From: Apostichopus japonicus
Taxonomy: Eukaryota; Echinodermata; Holothuroidea; Aspidochirotida; Stichopodidae
Direction: 5' to 3'
Length of the DNA stretch: 64,000 nucleotides
Assembly (NCBI RefSeq): GCF_037975245.1
Contig: NC_092565.1
Span: 20,374,999 to 20,438,998, forward strand
A program made the translations under genes and the position numbers. The notes under the pieces were generated by a model. That model made no database searches and had not been told where the DNA came from. It saw only the letters and a program-made list of their open reading frames with translations. Positions 302-38,000 of the stretch are shown piece by piece (the first letter of the stretch is position 1; each line of letters opens with the position of its first letter).

Positions 302-343
302 CTGTACATCTATGGTTTTTCCCGGAGTTGGCTTGTTAAACAT
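302..343 (-). other. Possible 42-nt downstream exon of the Ki-67-like gene, phase problem
   Basis: On the minus strand this stretch lies between a good acceptor (CCTACAG) and a donor (GTAAAAG). In frame 0 it reads MFNKPTPGKTIDVQ, which fits the style of the gene. However exon 4 ends in phase 1, and that join gives an immediate stop (GAT GTT TAA). Either exon 4 has another donor, this is a terminal or alternative exon, or it is not an exon. Confidence 0.25.
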
Positions 344-442
344 CTGTAGGAATGTTGTATCAGATCTGTGTACAGTATAAGTAACACAGAAAACCTAAAA
401 GGAATGACATTTCGTTTCCATATTTTCTCATAAACAACTTAC

Positions 443-3400
443 CAGGTGTTGTTGCTTTCTGCACAGGAGTCTTTCTATCTGGGCTTGGTGTCTTCTTGGC
501 AGGTGTGGGTGTCTTCCTGGCTGGTGTGGGTGTTTTCTTGGCAGGGGTTGGTGCCTTCTTAGCAGGGGTTAGTATCTTAGCGGGACTAGGTGTCTTTTTG
601 GCAGGTGTGGGTGTCTTCTTGGCTGGTGTGGGTGTTTTCTTGGCAGGGGTTGGTGCCTTCTTAGTAGGGGTTAGTATCTTAGCTGGACTAGGTGTCTTCT
701 TGGCAGGTGTGGGTGTCTTCTTAGTGGAGGGTGTCTTCTTGGCTGGTGTGGGTGTTTTCTTGGCAGGGGTTGGTGCCTTCTTAGCAGGGGTTACTATCTT
801 AGCCGGACTAGGGGTCTTCTTGGCAGGTGTGGGTGCCTTCTTGGCAGGGGTTGGTGCCTTCTTAGCAGGGGTTAGTATCTTAGCCGGACTAGGTGTCTTC
901 TTGGAAGGTGTGGGTGTCCTCCTTGCTGGGCTTGGTGTCTTCTTGGAAGGAGTTGGTGTCTTCTTTGCCGGACTAGGTGTCTTCCTTGCTGGGGTTCTTG
1001 ATTTCCTGGAAGGTGTGGGTGTCTTCTTTGCTGGGCTTGGTGTCTTCTTTGCTGGGCTTGGTGACTTCTTAAGTAACTGTGGTGTTTCAGCCTTCTTTGC
1101 TGGTGTTGCTTTCTTTGCAGCTGGTGATGGTGTACTCCTCGTGGAAGTCCTCTTTTGTCCAACTGGAGTGGCATTATCTTTTGGGGATGCAACTGTTTTC
1201 CCTTGTCCAGATTTCTTACCAGACTTGGGGGTCGCTTTCCCCGGAGTGGAAGTCTTCTTCGCTGGGGTCGACACTCTTCTGGGTGTACCTCTTCCAGGGG
1301 TGGCTTGCTTCTTTCCTGGGGTAGGTCCGTTCGCTGAGTAAACCTTCTCTGGTTGGAGCGGAGTAGGTAATTTACGTTTGCCCACCATCGGTGTCTTCTT
1401 TCTGCTACTTCTAGGTGTCCCACCGGCCGTGTTGGGTGGCGTTGTTTGTGTTGTGGATGTAACCTCGGGACTCTGTACTTCCTTCCTGCTTGGAGAGGAT
1501 CGATGGGCTGTCCGATGCACTGAATCAACCGGGTACTCAAACCTGGAATAACCAAAAACAACAACAGTGAAACACCACGTACTGGGCTTAAGGTAATCCA
1601 AACATGGCATGAACAGGACATTTATAAACAGAAGTAGGTAGCGTTGTGCGGTAGTCGGATTTCACACAACCGGTAGTGTTGCAACATGAATCCCGGTATC
1701 GTAACTACAACCGGTATTTTCTTCAACTTTCATCTACGGTTCAAAGCACTTAGTTACGAGACAGTCAATGTCATACATTCAATATGCATACTGTAGCCTA
1801 GGCTATGTACATACTCTTACACGCACGTTCATAAAAAAAAAATAACACGCTATATTAGGGCCTTTGTTTTTTAACATACACTTCCAAAAAGAAAAGCACA
1901 AACCTTGGAAAAAAGCAACCCACACCATCCTTCATTCATACTCGACGTACGATATTAGATTAACACGTTCGCACGTGGATTAAACTTGTAATCCGTACAC
2001 AAACATAAATTGGGAGTTCCCCACTAATCCATGATATTGGAATAGGGCAACCCCTTCAAGTTCAAAAGTTCACAATGAAAAGTTTTTAACTATCAACAAG
2101 TCACCACGTGTTTGGAACTTCAGACAATAAGAATGTTACATAGGGGCTACGTAAATACGGGATTATAAACTACATACATAAGAATAGTACAGATTTATTT
2201 ATATCGTTAATCGGCTTTTGTTTACTCCAGAAAATATACTTTCAATACGTACAATATCAATCTTTCGTACAAAAGATCTTAAAAATTAAAAAAGTAGCGA
2301 AATATAAATTTAAATGACATCGTGGAACCCCCCGCATTAATAAACGAATCCATTTCATTACATCATCAAATCTCAAGTACTGAACTGTTGTGTGTACCTG
2401 TACCGTACCCTAGGCTATAATAATATACAGTCCCATGCGAAGATGGGTTTAAACTGGATATACTCCCTGCGGTTTTGGCTCAAAATTGATTAAATCGTTA
2501 TAATTATTATAACAAAATGAGGTGAAATGCATAAGAGTAAGATTTTGTACATGGGAACCTTGACAATCATCGTGAAGGAAGAATAAATAACGAAAATTTC
2601 AGAATAACTTTGAGGTCCTGTAACATGCTGAGCGCAAGTAACGTTCGACATTTAGTGTAGCCTAGGTGCAAATTACTACGTGAAAAGTTGATTCGTTAAT
2701 ACATAGGTCTAGGCCAGTACGTAAATTGGTCAGATATTATTCAAACTAAGAACACAGAAACCAGAAAAAATCGTGTTTTGTTTTCTTTATTTCAAATAGT
2801 AACACGTAGATATTTTTATTATGTCCGGGATTCCCGGGAATGATACCGAAACGAATGTAATAACCGGTTGTTTTCCCACTACCGGTAGTATTTACACATT
2901 GCTTTGTGATCGGGATTAGTCAATACCGGGATCGGGATACCGGGATTCACTTGACTACCGGGATACCGCACAACCCTAGAAGTAGGTAATCAACCAATGA
3001 CTCCTTGCTCACACTTTATGGAGCGAATGAAACCAGACTGGCAGCACCTACCAAACCGATTCACATATATACAGTTGTTGAGAGAGACCTACCTATTATA
3101 TGAAATGGAAAATGAATTGTTTATCTTGGTTGTACTGGCTCTTGAAATAGGATACCAACCTAGAAATTGATTTTTGTTTGTTTCAGGTTGTCCCATCAGC
3201 AAAGTTGGTTATTCAACTTGATGAATACATAACCAGAAGCATAAAAGGCTTAGAGATGCCTTGCCATGTTTGGCAGCATATGGGAACATTTACTATAATA
3301 CTGTGCATATGCAGACAGTTTTCAAACCGAATAAGGTGGATCGACATACCAAGTGTGAACTTCATTTAAGTTTTGCTTTTTGAGTTATCCTGTTTTCAAG

Positions 3401-6400
3401 TTTTTCAGACATTAACCTCTGTTTGACCTAAATATCTATCATTTCCACCAGGATGTTGGTACTTCACGACAAAACCAGGGAACGGAAAAATGGTCCCCAT
3501 GACTAAAGGCGGCTACTGGATGATTTCCCTCACTACCACAGAATCATGTTTTATCTTAATTGTTTTACTGTATTTAGCTATTACGACTACTGATTTGCCA
3601 CTTAGCAACTCACAAATTCTCCTTTATAAACTGAGATCTTTTCGCACTCTGTACTTTCTGTTTAATATTCCCTCCACTGTATAGGTTACTTTTTGTGTAC
3701 CATGTACTGTAAATGTTAGGCTTCAGCATTCACTGTATATGAGTAAAGTGGAAATAAGCTTAGCTAATGGACAAAAGTTATGATCAAACAAAAAAAGGAT
3801 ATAACCTAGGTCTACAGTATGTATTGTTGTAACTTGTAATAGTGCCCATTTATAGCCTTTTAGTGTGATCTAAATTTTCAATTTTTTGAAATCAGAAACT
3901 CCATGGAAGTAATCAAGTTATCACAATTACTTTATCACAAGAAATCAGTTAAAGGTTCTTGATTGGGGGATTATTTAGAACTTAAAAGAACAAGTTTTCA
4001 TTAAATAATAGGATTATTGTAGTTAATATAGTGCATCCATGTATACCAAATATGAAGTTTCACCTACCCTATAGTTTGTGAGTTAACACTTTTACAAGGA
4101 GTCACACACATACACCATTACCACTGCATAGATTTCTCTCGCCTTTGGCAAGTGATACATCGATAAGTGTGTATCCTGGCCGAGTGGAACTACCGAATAA
4201 TGAACAATCTCATGGTAGTTTTTGTTTAGAAATGTTGTAATATGCATTGTGATTTATTCCACTGATGGAAATGCAGATCCACTACTTACTCGCATGTTTA
4301 TTGAATTCCATTTAGCCAGACAAACTCCTCACAGAGACTTCTTATTATTTAACCAGAAGATTTCTAAATAATAATTTCTAAAAAAAAAGATACTAAACAA
4401 GTCTACATGTGGAAGCCATTTGTTCTCAGCATCTCCAGTAATTAAGCAACCAACAAGTACAATAATTAATATATAACTCACCTGAATGATCGATCTACAA
4501 TGGTGAAAACATCTCTGTGAAAAATCTTAGTTGGGTTGCCTATCCCTTTCTTGTTTAATGTTGTTGCATTCACTTGACTTAAGTTCGTGACGAAAACCTG
4601 CAAGAGAAGATAGCAAAACGATGTTATCTCCGTTGAAAGGTCCTTGCAAAATTACGACTCTGGCCTACAGTAGCTATTACACTGCTTCATTTATACATCT
4701 GTGCAGTTAACTAAATTTCATAAACAATATATTATATTTCATTATACATGACGCTATAATTTCCCCCTATTCGAGCAGCCATTTTACTTTTTACTAACAC
4801 ATTTTGCTAGCAATTTACTAACACATCATTCGTCTTGTATTTATAAATGAACTAGGTTGCTATCACTTGCAAATCTGAACTTGGCCACGGTCAATGTTAC
4901 TTTAGGCCTGTCAACAGAGAGAAAGGCAGTTGGCTTCAAATGACCTAAGTTACATACCATATACACACACACAAATAGCTTAGGCAATCTTATTGGCCCT
5001 AACACATAAACACATTGGCCCTAACTCATAAACAAATCCTCATATCTTAACAAAACATGCTACATTGAAACTACCATGTTATGCAGTATACCTGTATATT
5101 TTTTCAAAATATTAATGCAAATCCCTCAACACTTCTGATTCTGTCATGACATTAGTCCCACAACATACTTATTCCCAAATCCATAACGTCAGCTTGTTGG
5201 TTATGAAGTAAGGCACTCATGTTACGCTCACACTCTATTGGTACCGCCACTAGTACTAGCTATATGATAGGCTAAACCCGGCAGATTTATCTTTCAGATG
5301 ACATGTATGTGGAGTAAAATCATTGCGATTGTTTCTTTGCTAAGGCAGGCTCCACTGAACTTTCTCGATATCGTCATTTGTTTTCATTCTGACAGTTTAG
5401 AGACAATTTGAATTCTGACTATGCGTCGGATGCAGCATTGCAGTGTACAGGACACAAAGTACTTCTGTACATACAACAACGTGAAACTGATTTCATGTTG
5501 TCTTTGCTGACAAGCACAGTGTGAAGTTTTAAAAAGTTTGGTATTAGCTTCGATTCCTGTCATTTTTTTTATAGTGATCAATGGAGATCTAGCAGGCAGG
5601 ACCACACCGTATACATCCCATTGCATTAAACCAATTGCTAAAAGAGACTTTTGTAGTACTCTTTGATTTAATAACTTTACTTTATGCTTCCATTATTGGT
5701 TGGTAAATAACTTTCAGCTTGCATACCTGCATCAAAGTCATACCTAGACAAAATGTCAAAGCTGTGCATTGAAGCAAAATTTGACACAAATCTTAACATT
5801 GGAAAAACATTGGAATGAACATTATAACTTTAAAAAAAAAGAAGGAAATTCTCATGCCATTTGAGATAAAAGGTAATCTTATGTAGTAGTACTAACCTCT
5901 CCATTAGGCTTGACATCTAATCTGCAATGTTCCCGCGAGACGTTTGGTAACTGGATCCTGATGTCGCATTCACTTGTCCTGTAATTCAAGAATGTAAAAA
6001 CGATCAATGTTCTTTCATCAGGGCTTTCTAGGCAATGAAAACTTGGAGGAGAATGTTGGATTTATTGTATGTTCAGATGAATATTAAACACTATCAAGTA
6101 TTATGCTGGATCATTATTTGTAATTGAATGATCACATGACAAACCACAAGGACACAGGTATGACATGGGTAGGGGAGGGGTGGCAAGAGTCAGTCCATTT
6201 TTCACTTGCGTTGAAATTGGGATTGAATTAGAACCCCTCAACTACAAATAGCCAAAACCAAACAGCAGCTGATAATACCCTGTTTTAATTCTCTTGCATG
6301 TCTCAGTTCAAGATTGATGCAACATTTTTATTGGAGGGAAGCAAAAAAAAAACTCATTTCCTACAGCTTTCTGATTAATATTATCCTATTCTAGTAATAT

Positions 6401-6792
6401 CACAATTATTCAAAAATATTGCATGGTGCTGATCATTCTTCAGCTGAGACAGTTTCGATCTATATGAATTCTTTTCAAAAGCTAACCCTAGAAATTAATC
6501 AACAATATTTGCCTGAAGGTTGGAACCATACTTGGGTTCTTACAGCAAAAATATACGATATTTAAGTAGAAAAAAGAAAAAAAGGCAAAACAAATGTGGT
6601 AATTAGGAAATTCCTTGTAAAGGTACAAGCTTTGTGACGGACTGCAATTTGCTCTGCTCGCACAGAGGTTAAGAAATATCATTCTTAGATAGAGCTGTAC
6701 CTTCCAAACATGCACTGATTCGATGTTAGAGGGAACTGTCCACCGTCTGCTCCACTTCTCTTAATGACCACCACAATTCCGTTCAATGGCAT
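443..6792 (-). CDS. MKI67: Ki-67 (MKI67)-like protein, 5' part: FHA domain plus Thr-Pro-Lys repeat region
   Basis: Exons on the minus strand: 6792-6701, 5978-5897, 4597-4482, 1542-443. All have GT-AG borders and matching phases (2, 0, 2). The ATG at 6792 is preceded by an in-frame TAA. Exons 1-3 (about 97 residues) read as the Ki-67 FHA domain: VVVIKRSGADGGQFPL, then CDIRIQLPNVSREHC, then NLSQVNATTL and FTIVDRSFR. Human Ki-67 has the same blocks (IKRSGVDGPHFPL, ECDIRIQLP, IIDRSFR), and the splice sites appear to fall at matching places. In vertebrates the FHA binds phosphorylated NIFK, and Ki-67 coats mitotic chromosomes. Exon 4 (residues about 97-463) is Lys/Thr/Pro-rich, with about 30 S/T-P-x-K/R motifs. 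RRVST may echo the RVxF PP1-docking motif of Ki-67, but that is weak. The donor at 442 is in phase 1 and I could not place the next exon, so the gene is partial at its 3' end. Intron 3 holds a hAT-like element. Confidence 0.86.
496..1060 (-). repeat. In-frame 21-nt/7-residue repeat array encoding K-T-P-T-P-A-K units (Ki-67 exon 4)
   Basis: The coding strand repeats 7-residue units such as KTPTPAK, KTPSPAK and KAPTPAK. A higher-order pattern is marked by SPAKILTPAKK or SPAKIVTPAKK returning several times. Nearly every unit has the minimal CDK consensus S/T-P-x-K/R. Because the DNA itself repeats with a period divisible by 3, the opposite strand is also open for 281 codons (GVFLAG repeats). That antisense frame is a by-product. 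Confidence 0.9.
1639..2978. mobile_element. hAT-like DNA transposon, non-autonomous, 1340 bp, 8-bp target duplication
   Basis: The ends are inverted repeats: TAGCGTTGTGCGGTA on the left, and the complement of TAGGGTTGTGCGGTA on the right. The element is flanked by a perfect 8-bp duplication gaagtagg (1631-1638 and 2979-2986), the hAT target-site size. The right part is rich in ACCGGGAT-type subterminal repeats. No transposase frame is visible. It lies in intron 3 of the Ki-67-like gene. Confidence 0.85.
4040..4150. repeat. Dispersed repeat fragment, related to positions 60-230
   Basis: Shares CACACAYACACCAT and CTTTGGCAAG with positions 160-200. The segment ccaaatatgaagtt...cttttacaagg resembles the complement of the 29.9-kb family. 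Old copy inside intron 3 of the Ki-67-like gene. Confidence 0.4.
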
Positions 6793-11839: not shown

Positions 11840-13500
11840 GAACAAATACGTTCTCATTTTCAGGGCATTGATAGAGATGCTGAACAGCTTGCTACTGCTT
11901 ATCGTGGAGTTGTCTTATCTCAGTTTGAACCTAGCACAATTGATAATTTAAGGGAGATAATTAATGATACTGGAATTATGTGCTCCCCTAGTGATATATT
12001 TCCAAGAGATCTCTTACAAACTAATATTGATCTTCTTCTTCCTTGCATATGTCATCTTGTTAATTTGTGGCTCATTACTGCCATGGCAGTATGGATGGTC
12101 TTAATCTTGCTGATATTTCTCCTGTCATCAAAGGGAATGGCTTAGATCATAACAATTTAAATAATTATTCTCCAATCTATCTTTTTTGGGTAAATTGATT
12201 AATAGAGTTGTCCTTACAACGATTGAATACCCAAATGCATTCTAATAGCCTCAATATTTCCAGGCAATCTGCTTACAAAAAAAATACCATAGTTCCGAAA
12301 CCCTCCTTTTGAGGGTGACTAATGACATATTAGTTGCCAGTGACAGTGGACATGCCACTATGTGCTGGTACTCCTTGACTTAAGCTCGGCTTTGACACCC
12401 GGATTACCATAATGTTCTTTTGTTCGTATTATCTAATGAAATTGGTATTACTGGTATTGTCCTAAACTGGTTTAAAAGTTTTATTGTGGGCAGATCGCTA
12501 AGAGTATACAATAGGGGGCTGTTCTTCTAACGAGATAACAAGTAAGTGTGGTGTGGCGCAGGGATCTGATTTGGGTCCAGTCTTATTTAACATCATATTT
12601 GTTCACTTTACGCTGACGTTTCTAGAATGGGTTTTAATATTCATGGCTTCGCTGATGATCACCAGGTTTATATAAACACTGCAGGCACCATAATCAAGGA
12701 TCTGTTCTGGTTGATTATCTGCAATCCTCCTTTGGTAGTATTCAACGTTGGATGCGCAAATTTCATTTACAACTCAACCCTAGCAAGACCCAAATAATTG
12801 TATTTGGTCCCCCTCCTATACTAAAACTGATTCATATCAAGGGCGTTATTCTTAACACTGTTGGTTGTATACGTTTTGACCAAATTGTTCGAAACCTTGG
12901 TGTTCATTTTGACGATACCATGTCTTTTCGGCATCAAATCTGTTCACTTTAATCCAGGTGCTTTAAGAATCTAAGAAATATTTCTAAAATGCGGTGATAG
13001 CTTACCAAGTCTGAGTTAAGCACTATTGTCCAATCCATGGTTATTTCGCATATTGATTATTGTAACTCACTTTATTTTGGTATCAACCAATATTTATATG
13101 ATCAACTCCAATCTGCTCAAAATTTTGCTGCAAGATTGATATATGGGTAGAAACAGATATGATCACGTGACTGATCTATCTTCATGGGCTTAAAATGAAG
13201 GAGAGGGTGTACTTTAAAATAATATTGATTGTGTTTAAGTATGTTAGACGACTGCAGGGTCCTAAATATATCCATGATATGTTGGTAACCTCTGACCGTA
13301 GCAGAAATATGTTATTAAAAGAGCCTCCAGTTAAATCCTCGTATGGGTATCGCTCGTTTGCAAAGGCTGGACCTTTTGTGGAATAAGCTTCCTGACAGCC
13401 TTATAAAAGTCCAAAATGCTGCTACTTTTTTAAGAGGCAGTTAAAACACTATTTATTTGTCAATGGTTCTGATTTCAGCCAGAATCTCGACTAGGTTTAA
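11840..13500 (+). pseudogene. Decayed non-LTR retrotransposon (CR1/L2-like reverse transcriptase)
   Basis: Read across frames, the plus strand gives, in order: KKLEQIRSHFQGI near 11840; RQSAYKKN (QSAYR-type block) near 12260; VLLDLSSA near 12370; GIVLNWFKSF near 12455; FADDHQVY, the reverse-transcriptase active-site box, near 12645; HFDDTMSFRHQI near 12905; ISHIDYCNSLYFGI near 13050; and a C-terminal LWNKLPDSL near 13380. This order is that of CR1/L2-type LINE reverse transcriptases. Many frameshifts and stops make it dead. The 5' end is not defined, and the 3' end abuts a TA microsatellite. Confidence 0.85.
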
Positions 13501-16051: not shown

Positions 16052-19000
16052 ATGGCGATGGGCCGTGGATTGACCTTGCAAATAGAGGATGGTTCCTATT
16101 CTCTGAACTCTTGGAATAGCATTCAGCCTGGAAGAGTCAAAAGTAAGTGTCTGTTGTTTATGTTTTATTACATACGTATGGTTTGTATACAGTTTATATA
16201 TGCTTCTAAGTTAACTTCTTCTGTGTACAGAATCCATTTTGCTTCCATTACCTTTAACTTTGGGAAATTTTTGTTTACCAAGTGAAAGGGCCAGACATCC
16301 TAGCAGCATATTCTTCAGAGGTTAACTGCCAAAAAAAAGAAGAATAGTAAGAACACATAATTTAAAAGAGACATATGGACAGACAGCTAAATTGGACAAT
16401 CTAAAAATGAATAGAGTAAAATTAGACAGAACATTAAATTTGTAAGTTACCATAAGTCCATAACAGGGTTTTTTTGTTTTGCAAAAGAAAGCCCTTTACA
16501 ACAACTTTTTCTGTGAACTGCCAGCCAGTTGGGACAATTCTGCAATGCCAATTACCACCCTATAGTCTCCCCTGATATCATTTTTTAAAGCACTCATACT
16601 GACAGTACAAACAGTTCCTCACCTTTATTTTAATAATGATGTGATATTCATACTGCTCAAAAAGACTGTCATTGCAAGTGCTTTGGAACACTTCTTTGAA
16701 GTAAGGTTTGTCATAGAAAAAAAATGGGTGCTACTGCAAAATTTCTTCATCCAACTATACTGGGAACAATTCAGTCTTCAAATTTTGTAAAGCAATTTGA
16801 AGTCCAGGCTCTGAACTTTCTCTGTAAACTTGCATAGCAATTTGCCCATTTTGAATAACATTTTGAGATGAATAGCATTTTGGGATACCAGATAAGTTAT
16901 TCCCAATGCTACTTGTCATTGTTTGGAAATTAAACCACTCAATGGACAATAGCTTTTCTAACTTAATCTTCCTACTAAATAACAAACATTATGTGAAAGC
17001 CTGAAAGGAAACCACAGGCAGCTTACTAGTCCTGAAATAAAATGGTTGTTTATCTTATTGACAATTAAGTTGAGGTGTGAATCTTAAGTTGAGAGGATAA
17101 GACATCAAGAAAACAGCACAGCAGTTACTGAGAAAGTGTGAAGAGCAAAAAAAAGGAATCCATCTTATTCACATTCCACACAGGATGTTTACTTATTAAG
17201 TCATTGCAGTCAACTACTTTGTCCCCTCACATTGACCAAAAAAAGGATTAATTGGTACTCACAGCTATGTTCAGGCTGTGTTAGTGTGTTTGCAGTGTAA
17301 AGAGTACACAAGTTATTTGTCACTTTGATCAAATGCAATGAAAGGATAATAAAGGATATTAAAGGATAATTTAGTCTCTTTGGTATTAACCTCTTAAAAC
17401 TGTATGATAATAATTATTATATAATTAATATATAATTATGATTAATTATTATTTAATTATTATATAATTATTATATAATTAAACTTTTGAAACCTACTGT
17501 ATTGTTTGTTTTCAATTTGTGTCACCATGTCACAACCAAACTTCAATACCTTGAAAACAAACCCCCTCCAAATCGAGCAGTTTATTGGCAAAGAAAACGT
17601 TAGCAATACTTACAGAGTACTCCCACACAAATGTTGTTACTGCAATAATTTAGGAATTGGTTTGATGTGTACAATGAAAGATAGTTGAGAAGGTTCAGTA
17701 AGACATTTTATTTTCATCCTTTCGTCATATTTGTTCATAGAATCGACAGAGACTCGCCAATCGCACGGCAAGAAGCTTGGGGGTCACTTTCAGCTGGCTG
17801 TTAATTTCCAGAAGCCAAAGCTTCCAGCTAAACAGTTGGTTACACCAGCAAGTCTCATGTCATCGACTCTCCAGCCCGGTCAGAAAAGTTTATCGAAGGA
17901 CCGGCCAAATTTTGAAGATGCCGCAGAGGATACATTCAGCGAGGACGAAGATAGCAGTCAGGACGAGGAGAATGATGACGATGATGACAGTGGTGATAGT
18001 GGCGACCAAAGAAAGGGCGCTTACAACTATCGTGATTCCATCCCGGTTTTATCAGACGGAGGAGATGGGAGTAGTGTCGACTCCAGCGACGAGGAAGAGT
18101 ATAGTAGTCACGCCGAGGAGGAGGATGCCATCGATTCCATGGAAGAAATACAAAGAGAGGAACTCGGTTTTACTCTCTTGAAAGACTCTAACAGATCCGA
18201 GGACGATAGCACAAGGGACAAGAGGAAAGTCGTGAGCTTATTGGGATCCATGTCTCCTTCCTCCGATAAAGAAAACTTGACAGACGACACAATTGTTAGG
18301 GTGAAAGGATCAGATAGAAACCAGAGTCAAAGGAATACTTCATCTGAACAGATGACAACTGGACTCGGGAGAATTGATCTTCACAATGTCGGCAACGATC
18401 AAAGCAAACAGCCCCTCACCGACTCTGCCAACACAACCATTATAACTGGAAATAAACCTATAATACTTAACGAGAATGCAGGGAGAGGCAGCTCGCAAAG
18501 ATCCTCCTTAGATAGAAATAAGAGAAACATCGACTACACTGTGACAGGTATTCAGCAAGAGAACCTGTTAATATCCGTACCTCCCAAGGGGGGCCAGTTG
18601 ATATCAGAGAAACCAATGGTAGGGCATCACACCCCTCCAGAACCAGAAATTATGTTTTGTGGCAGCAAGATAAGTCAACAGAGCAATAGGCTGTCTGCAA
18701 CAGCTGTACCTTTCGTGCCTCAAAAGCAAAACGACAGAATAAGAGAACGAGGTCCTAAAAGCCATTCCTGGATCGGACTCGATAACCAGGCAACATCCTG
18801 GTCATCTGGGTTTAACATTCAAGAAGAACATTCTGATGATGCTGGGGGAACTGGCCAGGGCAGTATCCAATGTAACGATATAGGTATAACTGATGACTCA
18901 CTGGTCAACCCAGATATTGGAAGGCATAAACCGCTTGGGTCTTTAACAACAACTACAAGTAATCCTACTGAATACCCTCAGCAAGGTCAAGGGTCAAGTA

Positions 19001-22000
19001 CTGGTATCACAGGAGGTGCATTAGCTAGGTCAACGTTTGAAAATGCCAGACAAGGATCTCCAATCCAGACGGATTTGAAGACCTCTAGGGAAGGGAGTCC
19101 GGGGTTCCCTGAGATGACTGTAAACAAACCAGCTATAAGAAATAACAGAAACCCCCTGTCAGAGATGCCTACGACATCCTTCACCGTGGTCCGTGGAACA
19201 GACGATCGAGCGGGGAGGACACAGGCCCCAGTGATATCAGTGAGAGGAGCAGGACAGGACAACAGGAGAGGAGGCCCATCACAGGATGGCGGTAGAGGGA
19301 TCGTATCAACTAGGTAAACAAAAAGTCTGCTTTTAAGTTAAAGTCACCAACTCTGCATATTCATCTTAATTTGTAGAGTGGGATCGTTGACTGAGTAATA
19401 AGTGGTCACTCCATTTTCAGGTATGATCAAGTCACTGTAGTGTTTTCATGGGAGAAAATATGCCACTAATCCATGATTCATTTTATGGGTGGATCCAGGG
19501 TTTAAAAAGGAAGCTGGTGTGGTCCTGAGAATGCTCTCCCAGAATCAGTTTAAAATGTTATATGTGAAATGGTGCATTTTTGTGGCATTTTAGACAACAA
19601 ATTTGGTCTAGATGGTCGGTCTTCATGCAGATTTGTGCTAATAACTACTAAATACTATAAACTACTTTATTTTTTATGTGGGGTTAAAAAAAGTAGGGGG
19701 AGGTCACGCCCTGTTTATGTAGGCCTGCCAATCTAATAATTTTGGTGAATGGGCGACTCAAGTTATGACTCATAATGACGCAGGTATCGGAGCTGACATT
19801 CCTCCAAATTCACCTCCCCTCTTTTCTGAACTGAAAAATTAACCCCCAAAAAAATAAATAATAATAATAATGGGAAAATTGACTCTTCTTGGAGTTTGCC
19901 TAAAGCAGTGAAATGTACTAATCATTTTACCATAAATTATGTCGAAATCCACTTTCCCCTCCCCAGATGGTGGTGTTAGTTTCACATCTATGCACTATAT
20001 AGAAAATATGATTTTAAAAACTTTTCATCATTGGTATTAAAGTGTACACTTGTGTCATTTCATTGCAGGATTCAACCAAGTGGGAAACTGTCTGATGCAG
20101 AGAGGACCAATGAATATGAATGGCGCAAGTTCAAAGTGGTTCGAAAAGTGAAAAAGGTGCATTTCAATATCTTTGAATCTCCCTGCTTATCGGTTACTTT
20201 TGTCAAACACAATGGATCTTGGGATGGTTGTATCAGTAATATTCATGTTTCGATGGTAGTGAAAACAATCTGAAAACATCTGATTCAACGACATGAAGAT
20301 GGGTTTTTATGTCGGAATAAAAATAATATTATTAAGAATGTTTTGTTTTAGTCTTCAAGACTAGTTGCCAAAATGTAACAAAAAAGGAGGATATCTTAAT
20401 TTGTTTGAAGGCAGGGTTTGAGCAAGGGCCTCTTGCTCTGTTAGAGGTAATTGCAAGCAATGTCTTGTCTTTCAGATATCCTGTTACCAGATAGGGGAAG
20501 GGAGAGGGAGGGGGGATGTTCTGGCAGGGGAAAAGAGGCAGGCGGGGTATCACAAATTTAAAAAGTGTGATTACATGCATGCTAATGGACAGTATTCTTT
20601 GAGACTTGATTTCATGAAGTTTTATATAAAGTGGGCATTGGTTTGATTGCATTATTAAAGTATTATTATTGTTCAAACACAACCAGTTTCTTCAAACTTT
20701 GTTAAGATTCTTAGGACAGCAAATAGACATCAGATTTCTGTTACAGTTATTATTTTTTCTTTCAGGTTTTAAAATCGGGAGGCGCCCAAGCTGGTAAACC
20801 CCGCCTGCCTGAAGATGTAACTGACCAACTCCTGGAAATTATTATTGATAGTAAGTGTTATAGTTTGGTATTACAACATTATTTGTTTTATATGGAGCAT
20901 TGATACCAATTTTATCGAGCATATTTATAAATTTGGGTATTCCAAAGTGATTATCTGCATGTATCACAATATAAATTACACAGACATGCTTACTATGGTC
21001 TTGAGTGCTTACAGGTACTCACTGGTAAGTTTGCGTATAATAATTAACATTTGCCTTAAATTGATGACCTCAATGTAATATTCCTTAGCAAAGAGAATGC
21101 AGCCATTGTAGCTTATCTGCTTAAAGTTTTATTCCAATCTTTCAAGGAAACTTTTTTGTTTGTTTTCTAATCTGTGTTGCTTGGGGCTCTTATGGGATCA
21201 ATATTAATGTAAACAAACTCTCTGTATGACCAAAACTTTTCAGAATAAAAAAGAAATTCGCTATCTTTGACCGAAAAATGCCAGGAGGGTTAGATTTGTT
21301 TCGCACATTTGCAATTATTTAATAATTTTGATACCCAAGTTGAACAGTAGTGCAATATGAGCTTATCATAGTCAAAACTAAGGCCTTTGAAAATAATCTT
21401 GATACCGCACTGCTTTACCGATAATTCCAAGGTCCTGTTTTGAAAATATAGAAGTAATGATTTTCATTTTTTCCAATTTTCTCTCCATATCACAGTGTCC
21501 GACTCTTTCCTGGTATTTGAAGATAAACCACAGGAGGTAGCGATAGTCCTGGAAGAAGTCATCTTACAAGCCGTAGAAGAAACGGCAGAGGATGACGACT
21601 ACCAGAGAGAGTTTATCACTCTACTCCAAAAGCTCTCCAGTAAGTATCAGTTTTGAAGTAAATATGCAATAAACTTTGGGAAATAGAGAAACAAATCCAA
21701 CAAACAGTCTTTTCTGGCTGGATTATGTATTTGATGGAAATGATGAAATGCATTTGATGTAATTAATTGTGAACATTGTTTATCATTGTGATTGTATCAT
21801 TGTTTATCAATGTGAACATTGTTTTACAATGTGAACATTGTTTATTAATGTGAACATTGTTATCAATGTGAACATTGTTATCAAATATCAATATGAACAT
21901 TGTTTATCATTGTGATTATCGATGTGAACATTGTTTATTTCTCCAACATTCTAGTCAAAAGTAGCATTTGAGTTGATACAGCTGCAGGAATAATGCTCAG

Positions 22001-25000: not shown

Positions 25001-26918
25001 AGAAATTCTACTACACTCAGAGACACTACCCAGGAGTTCAACTGCAGCCGAGCCAGCGGTGAACAGGTCCAATGAACCAGCTGACTCTGAAGGTAAGATC
25101 TGTCTATTCTACTGCTCAACATCTCACACTAGTCGCTAATCTATTAACATGAGGGCTGCAGTAGGACTTTTCAAACCCTTCCCAATCAAAACTTTTCCTA
25201 CGTCCGTTTTATTCTTTATTTTACAGATTCAAGTACAAGCAAGGATAACAAAGAAAAGGATGACGCCTCACAGTCTAATGATGGATCGAAAACTGAAAAG
25301 GAGAGATCTTCAACCTCTGAGAGTGGAATCAGTGAAGAAAGTCCGGTAATCGATGTCGGTAAAAGCGAACCAAAATCACCGTCTCCAACTCTCTCTCCTT
25401 ACAACGACAGTATGAAAGCCACGTACCTCTCGACTAAAGTCAGATGCTCCTCTCGGGGAAGAGATCATGCAAATGATGATGTAAAATCACAAACAATGGG
25501 ATCTGGGATCGAGGAGAGGAATAAAACTGCTGCCTCCGACAACAGAGAGGCATTTGATTGGTGGGACTTGGAGACTACTGTTAACAAGGTCTCAGGTCAT
25601 TTACCAAAGGAGAAAGATGCAGTCCGAGAAGTGAGAGACGATTGTATTTCAAAGCAGGATAACCCTGAGCGTATTAAACAGGGTCATCAGGAAACCAAGC
25701 AGGGTCATCATGTGCCTAGACGTGGCCATCATGTATCTAAGATGGACCATCAAGCACCCAAGGAGGGCCACCATGTCCCCGAACAGGTCAATAGGGAGCA
25801 GCAGGCAAGAGAAAATGAATCCTCAGCAAATGTCAAAGATGAGGCAACTGAAATTTGGGACGATGAACTCATTACAAATCCTCCACCTCTACTGTATCCT
25901 AGCGCTCTGAAACGTCGCATGAACGAGAACTCGTTGAGGGGCCAACGAGAACGTTTCGAGATGAATATCAGTCAAGCGACAAGGACATTTGAGGTTTGCT
26001 CAGGCAATGATAATAACAATGTCACCATAGGGAGAGTTAGTGGTGCGATCATTCAAGCCGACGATGATGTGATCGTCCTGGAGGACACCTCCGATTCGGA
26101 TAGCGAGACGGACGAAGATGTACCTCTGATCTGGGGTGACCTCAACTCCACAGGTCATGTTCATCAGCAGGACCAGGCATCAAATAATCCTTCTGGCTTC
26201 CAGCAAAACATGCAGAGAGGCGGTGGGAATGCTGTGTCCCAGACACTTGTAGGGCAGCGAAATGGGGAAGCCGGCGAATCGTTGGTGGTGTGTCAGACAC
26301 CTTGGAGCAATCAGACACTCATGGTCTTTCAAGAGGAAGAGGACACTGAATGTGCCTTGAGCGCAGTCGAAATTATGGCTCAGCGATCCTTGGCCGAGAG
26401 GAGACGCTTCGGCCGGGGACATCTGTGGCATTCTGCAAATTCGACTCCATGGAATGAGGTAAATAACAAAAGTTGATGAAAGATGGCTATTATGTCCCTT
26501 CACATTTAAAGGTTTCTAGTACTGTGTTGAAGTGGAATCTTGGCCAACAACATTTTTGCTGGTTGTCAAGGTGATACGATGGGAAAATAGAAGAACATGC
26601 CAGATGGGGTAGGGTATTATAAGGGGCACCACGTTTGTGCTATAGACTGAGTCCTAAGTTAAGTGATGAAACAAGAGCGTAAGAATAAAGTATTAAGGGT
26701 AGTGGTGATGCTGTATTCGAGGCCTTCAGGTATGCATTATGCTTCCATTAAAGGAGGTATTATATATTTCAGAGTCTATTTATTTTCACAGGGAAAGTTT
26801 TCTGAGTTTTAGAGAGGGGATCAAAATACTAGTTGAAATTTTTATAGTTTTCAGTTATTGTTTTCAGTTTGCAGATATCGTGCCCCCTAGATTAATAATC
26901 AGAAAGGATGTCGAGTAA
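16052..26918 (+). CDS. Eleven-exon gene: 1250-residue MIF4G-like protein with candidate SUMO-interacting motif
   Basis: Exons: 16052-16142, 17741-19313, 20069-20156, 20766-20850, 21496-21639, 22310-22377, 23458-23616, 24030-24178, 24980-25092, 25227-26458, 26868-26918. All borders are GT-AG, phases agree, and the total is 3753 nt including TAA. Residues about 31-555 are disordered and very acidic near the start (SEDEDSSQDEENDDDDDSGD). Residues about 585-810 are predicted helical. IGLSYCRFLGRLLFGFSVLP and FAKCLKVVMKEIG, with the final EIFLEILL helix, recall MIF4G domains of translation and mRNA-decay factors; this is a pattern judgement, not a search. The tail has a His-rich repeat (about 976-1009), VIVLEDTSDSDSETDED (from about 1105), a strong SUMO-interacting-motif candidate with CK2-type sites, and ends in FADIVPPRLIIRKDVE. 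Reading through the 26458 donor would instead end VNNKS. I do not recognise the orthologue. Confidence 0.82.
17404..17482. repeat. AT-rich simple repeat in intron 1 of the MIF4G-like gene
   Basis: Repeated ATAATTATTATATAATTA units. The rest of this 1.6-kb intron (16143-17740) shows nothing else. Confidence 0.85.
21765..21945. repeat. Minisatellite in intron 5 of the MIF4G-like gene
   Basis: About eight degenerate units of roughly 18-22 bp around AATGTGAACATTGTTTATC. AATGTGAACATT is close to its own reverse complement, so adjacent units can form small hairpins. It lies between the exons ending at 21639 and starting at 22310. Confidence 0.88.
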
Positions 26919-35014: not shown

Positions 35015-38000
35015 TTACTCTTTATACTTTGATAACTTACTCGGCTTCTTCTTGAATGCCGGCCATCTACACGTCGGGCAACAATGCTTGCCCCCGCAGA
35101 GCCAGACTTTCACGCAGTCAAAGTGAAATGCATGACCGCAGGGGAGACCGCAGAGGTGACTCCCCAGGACGTACCCCTCCAGGCATATGGCGCATTCTAA
35201 ACTTTTCAACATTTCTTCTGGCCACGCATCATACTGGTTTCCTGAAGTGTGGTTCTCTTCCTGGGTGCTTTCCTCCGACCAGATATCTGTTGCTGTGATA
35301 CCATGACCAACATCCTGGTGGTGTAAATTTGCTGGTTCCTTCACAACGATTGCCTTTCCACTTTCCCCTTCCTCGATATGACAGATGAGATCCAGACACA
35401 CTCCGCAAAACTTCTCTTCGGATAAATTAGTACTATTTTCAGTGACCTTTGACCCCTTTGTAGGTTGCATTTCCACAATCTTGGTTTCCTTGTTGTGACC
35501 ATCTTCAAACACTTCATAAAATTCTTTGTCCTTTATGCCTTGAGCCCCGTGGATCTCGGCTTTCTCCTTCTTGGATTGTCGTTCCGTAAACATCTGCCGT
35601 ATTTCCTCGCAAGATTTCTCAAATCTCTCCTGTCGGTCTGCCTCGGTCTTCATACAGAAAAATTTCTGCCATGATTCCTGACAACTACCACAGAGATGCT
35701 TGAAACAGTACTTTTCATCTTGTGACTTCCTAAAGCCTCCGTACTTCCACTGGGGTAGGTTGTGAACGTATTCTCCCGTGATGATGGGGTGGAGCCAAAG
35801 GTCGGGCGTGGTCCTCTCGAGGAATAAATCCAGGCCTTCCTCTAGGCTGGTAGAGATCTGTGGCCCACCTTGCTGCCATATATTTCTGGGCCGGATCATA
35901 AAGAGGTGCCATTGGTGAAAGATCAGTCGCATCCAGTCTACGCTCGATAGATTGTCCTCCTGTGACTGAGGGCGACATTTCTTCACAAACCAGCCGCAGA
36001 CGAAGCAGTACAGACCGAAGAGACAGCAGACGATTCCCCAATGTTGAGAATGGAGCAACCAATCCTGACGGAGCTGACCGGCGACTCCCGTCTGACACAG
36101 GACTTGAATCGACCACCAGAATACATTCGAGAGTGGCGCAATGACCGAGAGTTGAAACGTCCATTGCAAGGGAAGCCATAGTAAAATGAACAGCAGGTTT
36201 AACTTGGCTAACTGCCAGAAGAAGCATAAGAGTATTTTCGCTAGACCTCCCGAAGTCAGAAACAGATCCATGCAGCAGAACATGTTCACTATGACGAACG
36301 AAATTATGAAGACATCATTTATCTCCGGGACCAGGGTATGAAGATACAGGTTTAGGGCGTCGTAGTTTAAAAATTCTCCTTTCCTCAGTCCGTATCTCTG
36401 TACGCCCGTGGACGTCGAGATCAGTAGGTGGGTTTTCGAGTCCGGTTTAAAATGGATGCACTTGGCGCTCCCTTTCCGATAGTAACCAAATTTTATACGT
36501 CCGCTGTACCTCATGCTGAGGGCCGAGAAGATAATGGAGGGCTTTTCTCTATCGGTGAAGATGACAGCTCGGACGCTCTGTTGAATCTCTTCTTCCGATT
36601 TAAATTCCAGCCAGTGGTCGCAGAGCTCCTTCTCGTCCTCGATTTCCATCAGTTTTGAAGATAGTTGCTGATTCACCCAGTCGACCACTGCCGGAGCCTG
36701 TGCGGGAGCGGACAGCTGACGCATCAACACGCGGTCTTTGTACTGATGTCCGTCGGGCATCGCCAGTAAAACAAACGGTTTCGACCAACCTTTCTGTCGA
36801 CAGAACCTGAAAGGATGGATATGATATTTATCAAGAGAGGAAATTGGATTGATGTCAAAACTTTAAAGAAAGTCATAGTTGAGGAGCAGATGGGGGGGGG
36901 AGGTGGGGGGGGGATATCCAAGTTTTTGTCCAAACCTAAACCAAATTGTTGCAATTTATATGAATGAAGGTATAAAACCATAGCAGGGGACATTCTGTTA
37001 CAATTAGAAACATGTTTCTCTCTCTATTATTTTCACAACTGTCCCAAATAAATGGACATCTATTAATCACATTTCTGCCTTTATCTTACTATATTAAAGC
37101 AAAGAAAAATATCCACAAAAACGAACCGTATATCTCGCGCACAGACGAAGATTCCCGTTCTTATCCCAAAGATGGAGACTTTCTGAATGACGCTTTTCCA
37201 TGTTGAGGAGCCAAGAAGTGGTAATCCGGCACCAGGGACCACCTACAGATATAAAAGAGCCAAAAAAAGCAAAATGAATAATATATGAGCACAGAAGAAT
37301 GAAAAAAGTCTACATTACCCAACCTCACAGGCTTGAGAATGAGAAAATAAAACATAATGTTAAATCTTGTGGGACCATTTTTTTTTTCTCTACCGAACTT
37401 AGCTATATGCAACTATCTAATTACAAACATCCCAATGATTTTGACCACATTGATTACTTAGATGGGGGGGGGGGCAGGAAGGTATGAGTTGAGTATCCAG
37501 TTCTGTTTTCAACATTACATGGTCTGGTATAAAGAATATCAACAAACTAAACCAAAACTGAAAAATTGCAGCTTTAATACAACCATTCATAACTTGATTC
37601 CACTTTTGAACAGACTCAGTTCATTTTATGCAACATTCTATGTGAACTCTATGACATTTTACTCCTCACCAATAGCACTGCCAAGAACGACTTTCCGACC
37701 TGATTCTTGAATGCAAGAAGGCTAGGCATATCTGCTATGGAAGTGTGGTAGGTCTATCGGAAAGTGTTGATATTACTTTTGAAGAGTTACAGATTACAGA
37801 TCAAGAGTTTACATGTCGTCTCTGACATTAATATGACATACAGAGCAATATATTTATACTTTGTGTTCAAGCGTCTCTGGCAGCAGTTACTTTACATCTG
37901 CAAACACAACCAGTTGCTTCAAGACTTTGACCTAACAAACGGTCAGTGGGACAGCTGTTTTCCACGCTGACCCTTCGTTTTGGTATATTGTGGGTTGTCT

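Follow-up and report, generated by a model that had tools for sequence, protein, structure and literature searches.

The analyzed window, a stretch of 64,000 nucleotides of sea cucumber DNA (C5:20374999-20438998), holds at its left end the front of a Ki-67-type gene encoded on the minus strand. The blocks IKRSG, CDIRIQLP, and IVDRSFR, which an earlier note had read as parts of a Ki-67 FHA domain joined by coherent splice phases, are indeed present there, in three separate open frames and in the correct order. Exon 1 (6701..6792) begins with the ATG at 6792, which is the coding start, and encodes MPLNGIVVVIKRSGADGGQFPLTSNQCMFGR within an open frame of only 38 amino acids; the FHA domain begins here, and the exon ends at a GT donor. 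The core of the domain, SECDIRIQLPNVSREHCRLDVKPNGE, is encoded by exon 2 (5897..5978), which is bounded by an AG acceptor and a GT donor, entered in phase 2, and left in phase 0. Exon 3 (4482..4597), likewise flanked by AG and GT, with phase 0 at its entry and phase 2 at its exit, encodes the end of the domain, VFVTNLSQVNATTLNKKGIGNPTKIFHRDVFTIVDRSFR; a DNA search with this exon gave one match genome-wide. Exon 4 (443..1542), again with an AG acceptor and a GT donor, contributes 367 amino acids with a pI of 11.9, which consist mainly of short K-T/S-P-A-K units in tandem. All joints between these four exons are in frame, their phases (2, 0, and 2) agreeing. Directly upstream of exon 1 lies an AG acceptor-like site, which suggests a 5' untranslated exon ahead of it; the human Ki-67 gene has a non-coding first exon.

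The earlier note had dealt with four exons. These do join, but they make up only the front of the gene, which leaves the window at its left edge and continues through five further coding exons (exons 5-9, C5:20374054-20366430) to a stop at C5:20366430. In the full model, whose exon ends were picked by eye and then frame-checked, nine open coding exons are separated by eight introns, all of the GT-AG type and with matching phases throughout (2, 0, 2, 1, 0, 1, 0, 0). The coding sequence spans 6.3 kb, and the modeled protein comprises 2,094 amino acids. Two splice sites are weak, namely, the exon 5 donor (GTTGGC) and the exon 8 acceptor (CAAG). Together with the long tandem array in exon 4, they are what might be expected of a decayed or misassembled copy. 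Against this stand the nine open exons, with phases that match across the entire coding sequence, and the result of searches of the genome (671,581,487 nt, or 671.6 Mb, in 35 contigs) with the Pfam PP1_bind model and the human Ki-67 FHA domain, which found no second copy. We therefore consider decay or misassembly extremely unlikely.

The K-T/S-P-A-K units of exon 4 are encoded by a 21-bp tandem array of 28.5 copies at 487-1070, the length of which is possibly polymorphic. The exon gave no Pfam match up to an E value of 1, and it contains just two donors of the GTAAG/GTGAG type, both in phase 1. Beyond it, an exon-like stretch at 302..365 on the minus strand has splice-like ends and an open frame encoding SDTTFLQMFNKPTPGKTIDVQ, a peptide that resembles the Ki-67 motif. 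The phases of this putative alternative exon (2 in, 0 out), worked out by hand, do not match a position between exons 4 and 5, which rules it out of the main model, but fit one between exons 3 and 6. Judged by its sequence, it may possibly belong to a short isoform that skips exons 4 and 5.

Several other features were observed in the window. An open frame of 615 amino acids (35018-36862, minus strand) carries a C-terminal RING finger (zf-RING_2, 37 bits); an NCBIfam search with this frame returned no match, and we take it to resemble RNF103. Two open frames on the plus strand, of 542 (17689-19314) and 442 (25148-26473) amino acids, the first with an acidic stretch, had no Pfam match at E values up to 0.1. 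A frame at 12659-12949 (plus strand) gave a reverse-transcriptase match below threshold (13.9 bits, with a cut-off of 29.6) and is possibly a broken retroelement adjoining the Ki-67-type gene. Elsewhere in the genome, COX1 on contig C35 scored highest, at 504 bits, when translated with the echinoderm/flatworm mitochondrial code, compared to 483, 474, and 472 bits with codes 4, 5, and 13 (four codes tested), which agrees with an echinoderm source; read with the vertebrate code, it would be interrupted by stops at seven AGA codons. Besides this full COX1, five separate COX1 pieces lie on contig C29 (14745-31219) and represent a second mitochondrial or nuclear-mitochondrial copy.

The FHA domain

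Comparison of the joined exons 1-3 (104 residues) with all solved structures placed the FHA domain of human Ki-67 (2aff and 1r21) at the top with 97 bits. The alignment covers query residues 7-99 (E = 5.5e-27); of its 93 columns, 47 are identical and one is a gap. At the level of sequence, this likeness is far above chance. The stretches WADIVK and TILIGRK presumably have counterparts in human Ki-67 as well. When the human Ki-67 FHA domain was searched back across the genome, it gave three matches in all, and all three fell in exons 1-3; individually, they were weak (E = 0.004 for exon 2, 0.036 for exon 3, and 0.083 for exon 1) because the search proceeds exon by exon. The predicted protein carries an N-terminal FHA domain of the Ki-67 type, and the claim of an invertebrate Ki-67 homologue with a complete FHA domain was borne out, with the search back finding this gene alone.

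FHA domains also occur in proteins of the DNA-damage type such as MDC1 and NBN, and the locus might encode a member of one of these or of another FHA family in which Ki-67-like blocks arose by chance. Consistent with such an assignment, the joined exons matched the general FHA model of Pfam (53.7 bits) and the Yop-YscD model (41 bits), which we take to be a member of the FHA clan, and several other FHA proteins scored above noise in the comparison with solved structures. However, the next family after Ki-67 was represented by the FHA domain of a bacterial GGDEF-domain protein with 31 bits, MDC1 did not exceed 21 bits, and the 25 entries returned at E values up to 10 included no chain of NBN. 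Moreover, a PP1 segment of the Ki-67/Repo-Man kind sits in the same gene model. Thus, a better match to another FHA family was sought among solved structures but not found, the scores speak against MDC1 and NBN, and a different FHA protein with Ki-67-like blocks arisen by chance is extremely unlikely. The gene is real, and it is almost certainly of the Ki-67 type.

The PP1-docking segment and the relationship to Repo-Man

Exon 7 carries RVSFGPQLSPERFDKTLPVHTPLRKGASP, a PP1-docking segment composed of RVSF and a near-complete KiR motif. It matched the Pfam PP1_bind model (PF15276) with 45 bits against a cut-off of 27, and a genome search with the same model, performed with a tool that may miss weak matches, gave one match, in exon 7. 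The KiR-SLiM consensus has been given as FDxxLP(P/A)N(T/S)PL(R/K)(R/K)Gx(T/S)P (PMC5005033), and 12 of its 14 specified positions, counted by eye, are kept in the segment. Thus, at the sequence level, the combination of RVxF and KiR-SLiM through which Ki-67 binds PP1 is present. KiR selectivity has been attributed to the arginine at residue 20 of PP1-gamma (Kumar et al., PMC5005033). In the sea cucumber genome, the STPPase_N model matched at three places, two of which are PP1-like and encode V-R-G; the third (36 bits) contains an internal stop and begins later in the model. We assume that the V-R-G of the two PP1-like places corresponds to the Arg20 spot of human PP1-gamma.

The segment also bears on whether the gene is a Repo-Man (CDCA2) orthologue rather than Ki-67. 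Searched against solved chains at E values up to 10, it matched Repo-Man with 40 and 38 bits and Ki-67 (5j28) with 30 bits, and the remaining match was a single UHRF1 entry (E = 0.25). Over 30 residues, 20 are identical to Repo-Man and 16 to Ki-67, while Repo-Man and Ki-67 share 17 with each other. The comparison of the locus with both human proteins, which the earlier note had proposed, is therefore divided: the FHA domain is that of Ki-67, but the PP1 segment scores higher to Repo-Man. A Repo-Man gene would be expected to carry the PP1 segment and lack the FHA domain. We found the segment together with an FHA domain of the Ki-67 kind in the same gene model. In addition, a single locus in the genome is more simply explained by an ancestor-type gene of both proteins, consistent with the account of Booth et al. 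(PMC4032110), in which Ki-67 is called ancestral to Repo-Man. A Repo-Man orthologue is thus very unlikely.

At the level of sequence, we identify the locus with high confidence as the Ki-67 orthologue of the sea cucumber, and it most likely corresponds to the one gene that gave rise to both Ki-67 and Repo-Man of vertebrates. Because one PP1_bind locus was found and its PP1 segment is at least as Repo-Man-like as Ki-67-like, pre-duplication orthologue of Ki-67 and Repo-Man is, in our best reading, the most exact name. That one protein model unites the FHA domain with PP1 docking of the KiR type, and that no second PP1_bind locus was found, agrees with the published proposal of Ki-67 as the ancestor of Repo-Man.

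The earlier note had started from the premise that Ki-67 is known mainly from vertebrates. This premise does not hold, since Ki-67 sequences from Ciona, Saccoglossus, Hydra, and Trichoplax, with an alignment of their PP1 region, were already presented by Booth et al. (2014, PMC4032110). KI67 mRNA has also been imaged in another sea cucumber, Holothuria glaberrima, where it is reported to mark proliferating cells and the proliferating cluster (PMC11925454). With Ki-67 beyond vertebrates already published, the gene described here is unsurprising but adds a good example, and through it an echinoderm Ki-67 gene has been modeled over its full length. The assumed age of Ki-67 is unchanged because the Hydra and Trichoplax sequences are already in print (PMC4032110). 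Nor does the gene date the chromosome-coating function, as the earlier note had hoped, for a homologue alone does not date a function.

Repeats, charge, and the basic tail

The protein contains five cores that resemble the Ki-67 motif (G..[EN][LM]F.[ST]P); exon 7 encodes three of them and exon 9 the other two. No such core occurred in 2000 block shuffles, a contrast that is overstated because the pattern was written after the protein had been read. We also scored the protein against the published 22-amino acid Ki-67 motif (as in ...LAGFKELFQTP; PMC8354752). Among 1000 shuffles of each kind, 12 global and 25 block shuffles attained the best score, 33, while the fifth-best score, 23, was reached by none of either kind. 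Half of the eight best-scoring segments coincided with cores, and the other four did not.

A vertebrate-type Ki-67 repeat, which is described by the Pfam KI67R model and is about 120 amino acids long in human, was not found. The model (PF08065, 112 positions) had no match in the genome at E values up to 10, with the controls also unmatched, and hmmscan with the protein divided into four pieces gave no PF08065 match at E values up to 1. The repeat region of Ki-67 has been described as extremely variable across vertebrates (PMC8354752).

The composition of the protein is strongly basic, with 521 lysines and arginines, 112 aspartates and glutamates, and 206 S/T-P sites. Its net charge is +409, and it would be about -3 with a phosphate on all 206 S/T-P sites, a calculated upper bound. 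At its C terminus, Ki-67 has a leucine/arginine-rich (LR) chromatin-binding domain; in the sea cucumber protein, the last 300 amino acids have a pI of 11.9 and contain 18.7% lysine and 11.3% arginine, but leucine is not enriched and stays at 4% or less. Outside the FHA domain, the protein has a low-complexity look and is probably disordered.

Proposed function and comparison with known systems

By analogy with the vertebrate Ki-67 model (PMC8354752), we infer that the sea cucumber protein would coat chromosomes. The basic tail and the arrays would bind mitotic chromatin, and the long phosphorylatable chain would cover the chromosomes as a layer in which the FHA domain lies outermost and binds phospho-proteins. 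Phosphorylation by mitotic CDK1 would reduce the positive charge of the chain, and PP1 docked at the RVSF/KiR segment would undo this phosphorylation at mitotic exit. A search for the Ki-67-binding segment of NIFK (PF12196), a ligand of the FHA domain, gave four matches in the genome, none above the cut-off and the best with 18.8 bits; inspection by eye of the open frames around the best match revealed no convincing gene, although an intron may interrupt the region that the 40-position model covers.

More tentatively, one echinoderm gene might do the work of both Ki-67 and Repo-Man, with a charge-switch coat (from about +409 without phosphate to near zero with all S/T-P sites phosphorylated) built from short lysine/S-P arrays and not from 120-amino acid repeats. 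We regard this as possible but rather doubtful. If it were true, sequence-specific repeats would be dispensable for the chromosome coat. In practical terms, the gene would allow one to test in dividing embryos which parts of Ki-67 are required for the chromosome coat.

A different role, that of a kinetochore linker in place of a chromosome coat, is suggested by bridgin (Bgi1) of basidiomycete fungi, which, as described in PMC7794384, likewise has an N-terminal FHA domain, a PP1 site, a disordered middle, and a basic tail, and of which Ki67 is named there as the metazoan homologue. Bridgin is a kinetochore protein, however, and its PP1 site is called unconventional in the same source, whereas the PP1 segment of the sea cucumber gene is of the KiR type. 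A bridgin-like linker is thus highly improbable, and a Ki-67-type chromosome coat remains the preferred interpretation.

With Repo-Man, the sea cucumber gene shares a PP1 segment that contains both RV[ST]F and FD..LP..TPLRKG.[ST]P, and this segment is closer to that of Repo-Man than to that of Ki-67. According to PMC5005033, the PP1 segment is all that Repo-Man shares with Ki-67, and the FHA domain separates the sea cucumber gene from Repo-Man. Differences from vertebrate Ki-67 lie in the repeats: the sea cucumber protein has no match to the repeat model and carries K-T/S-P-A-K arrays in exon 4, and its cores are spread over two exons, in contrast to the vertebrate repeats, which lie in one (PMC8354752). 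Like human Ki-67, it combines an N-terminal FHA domain, an RVSF/KiR PP1-docking segment, candidate cores of the G-x-x-E-[LM]-F-x-[ST]-P type, and a basic C terminus.
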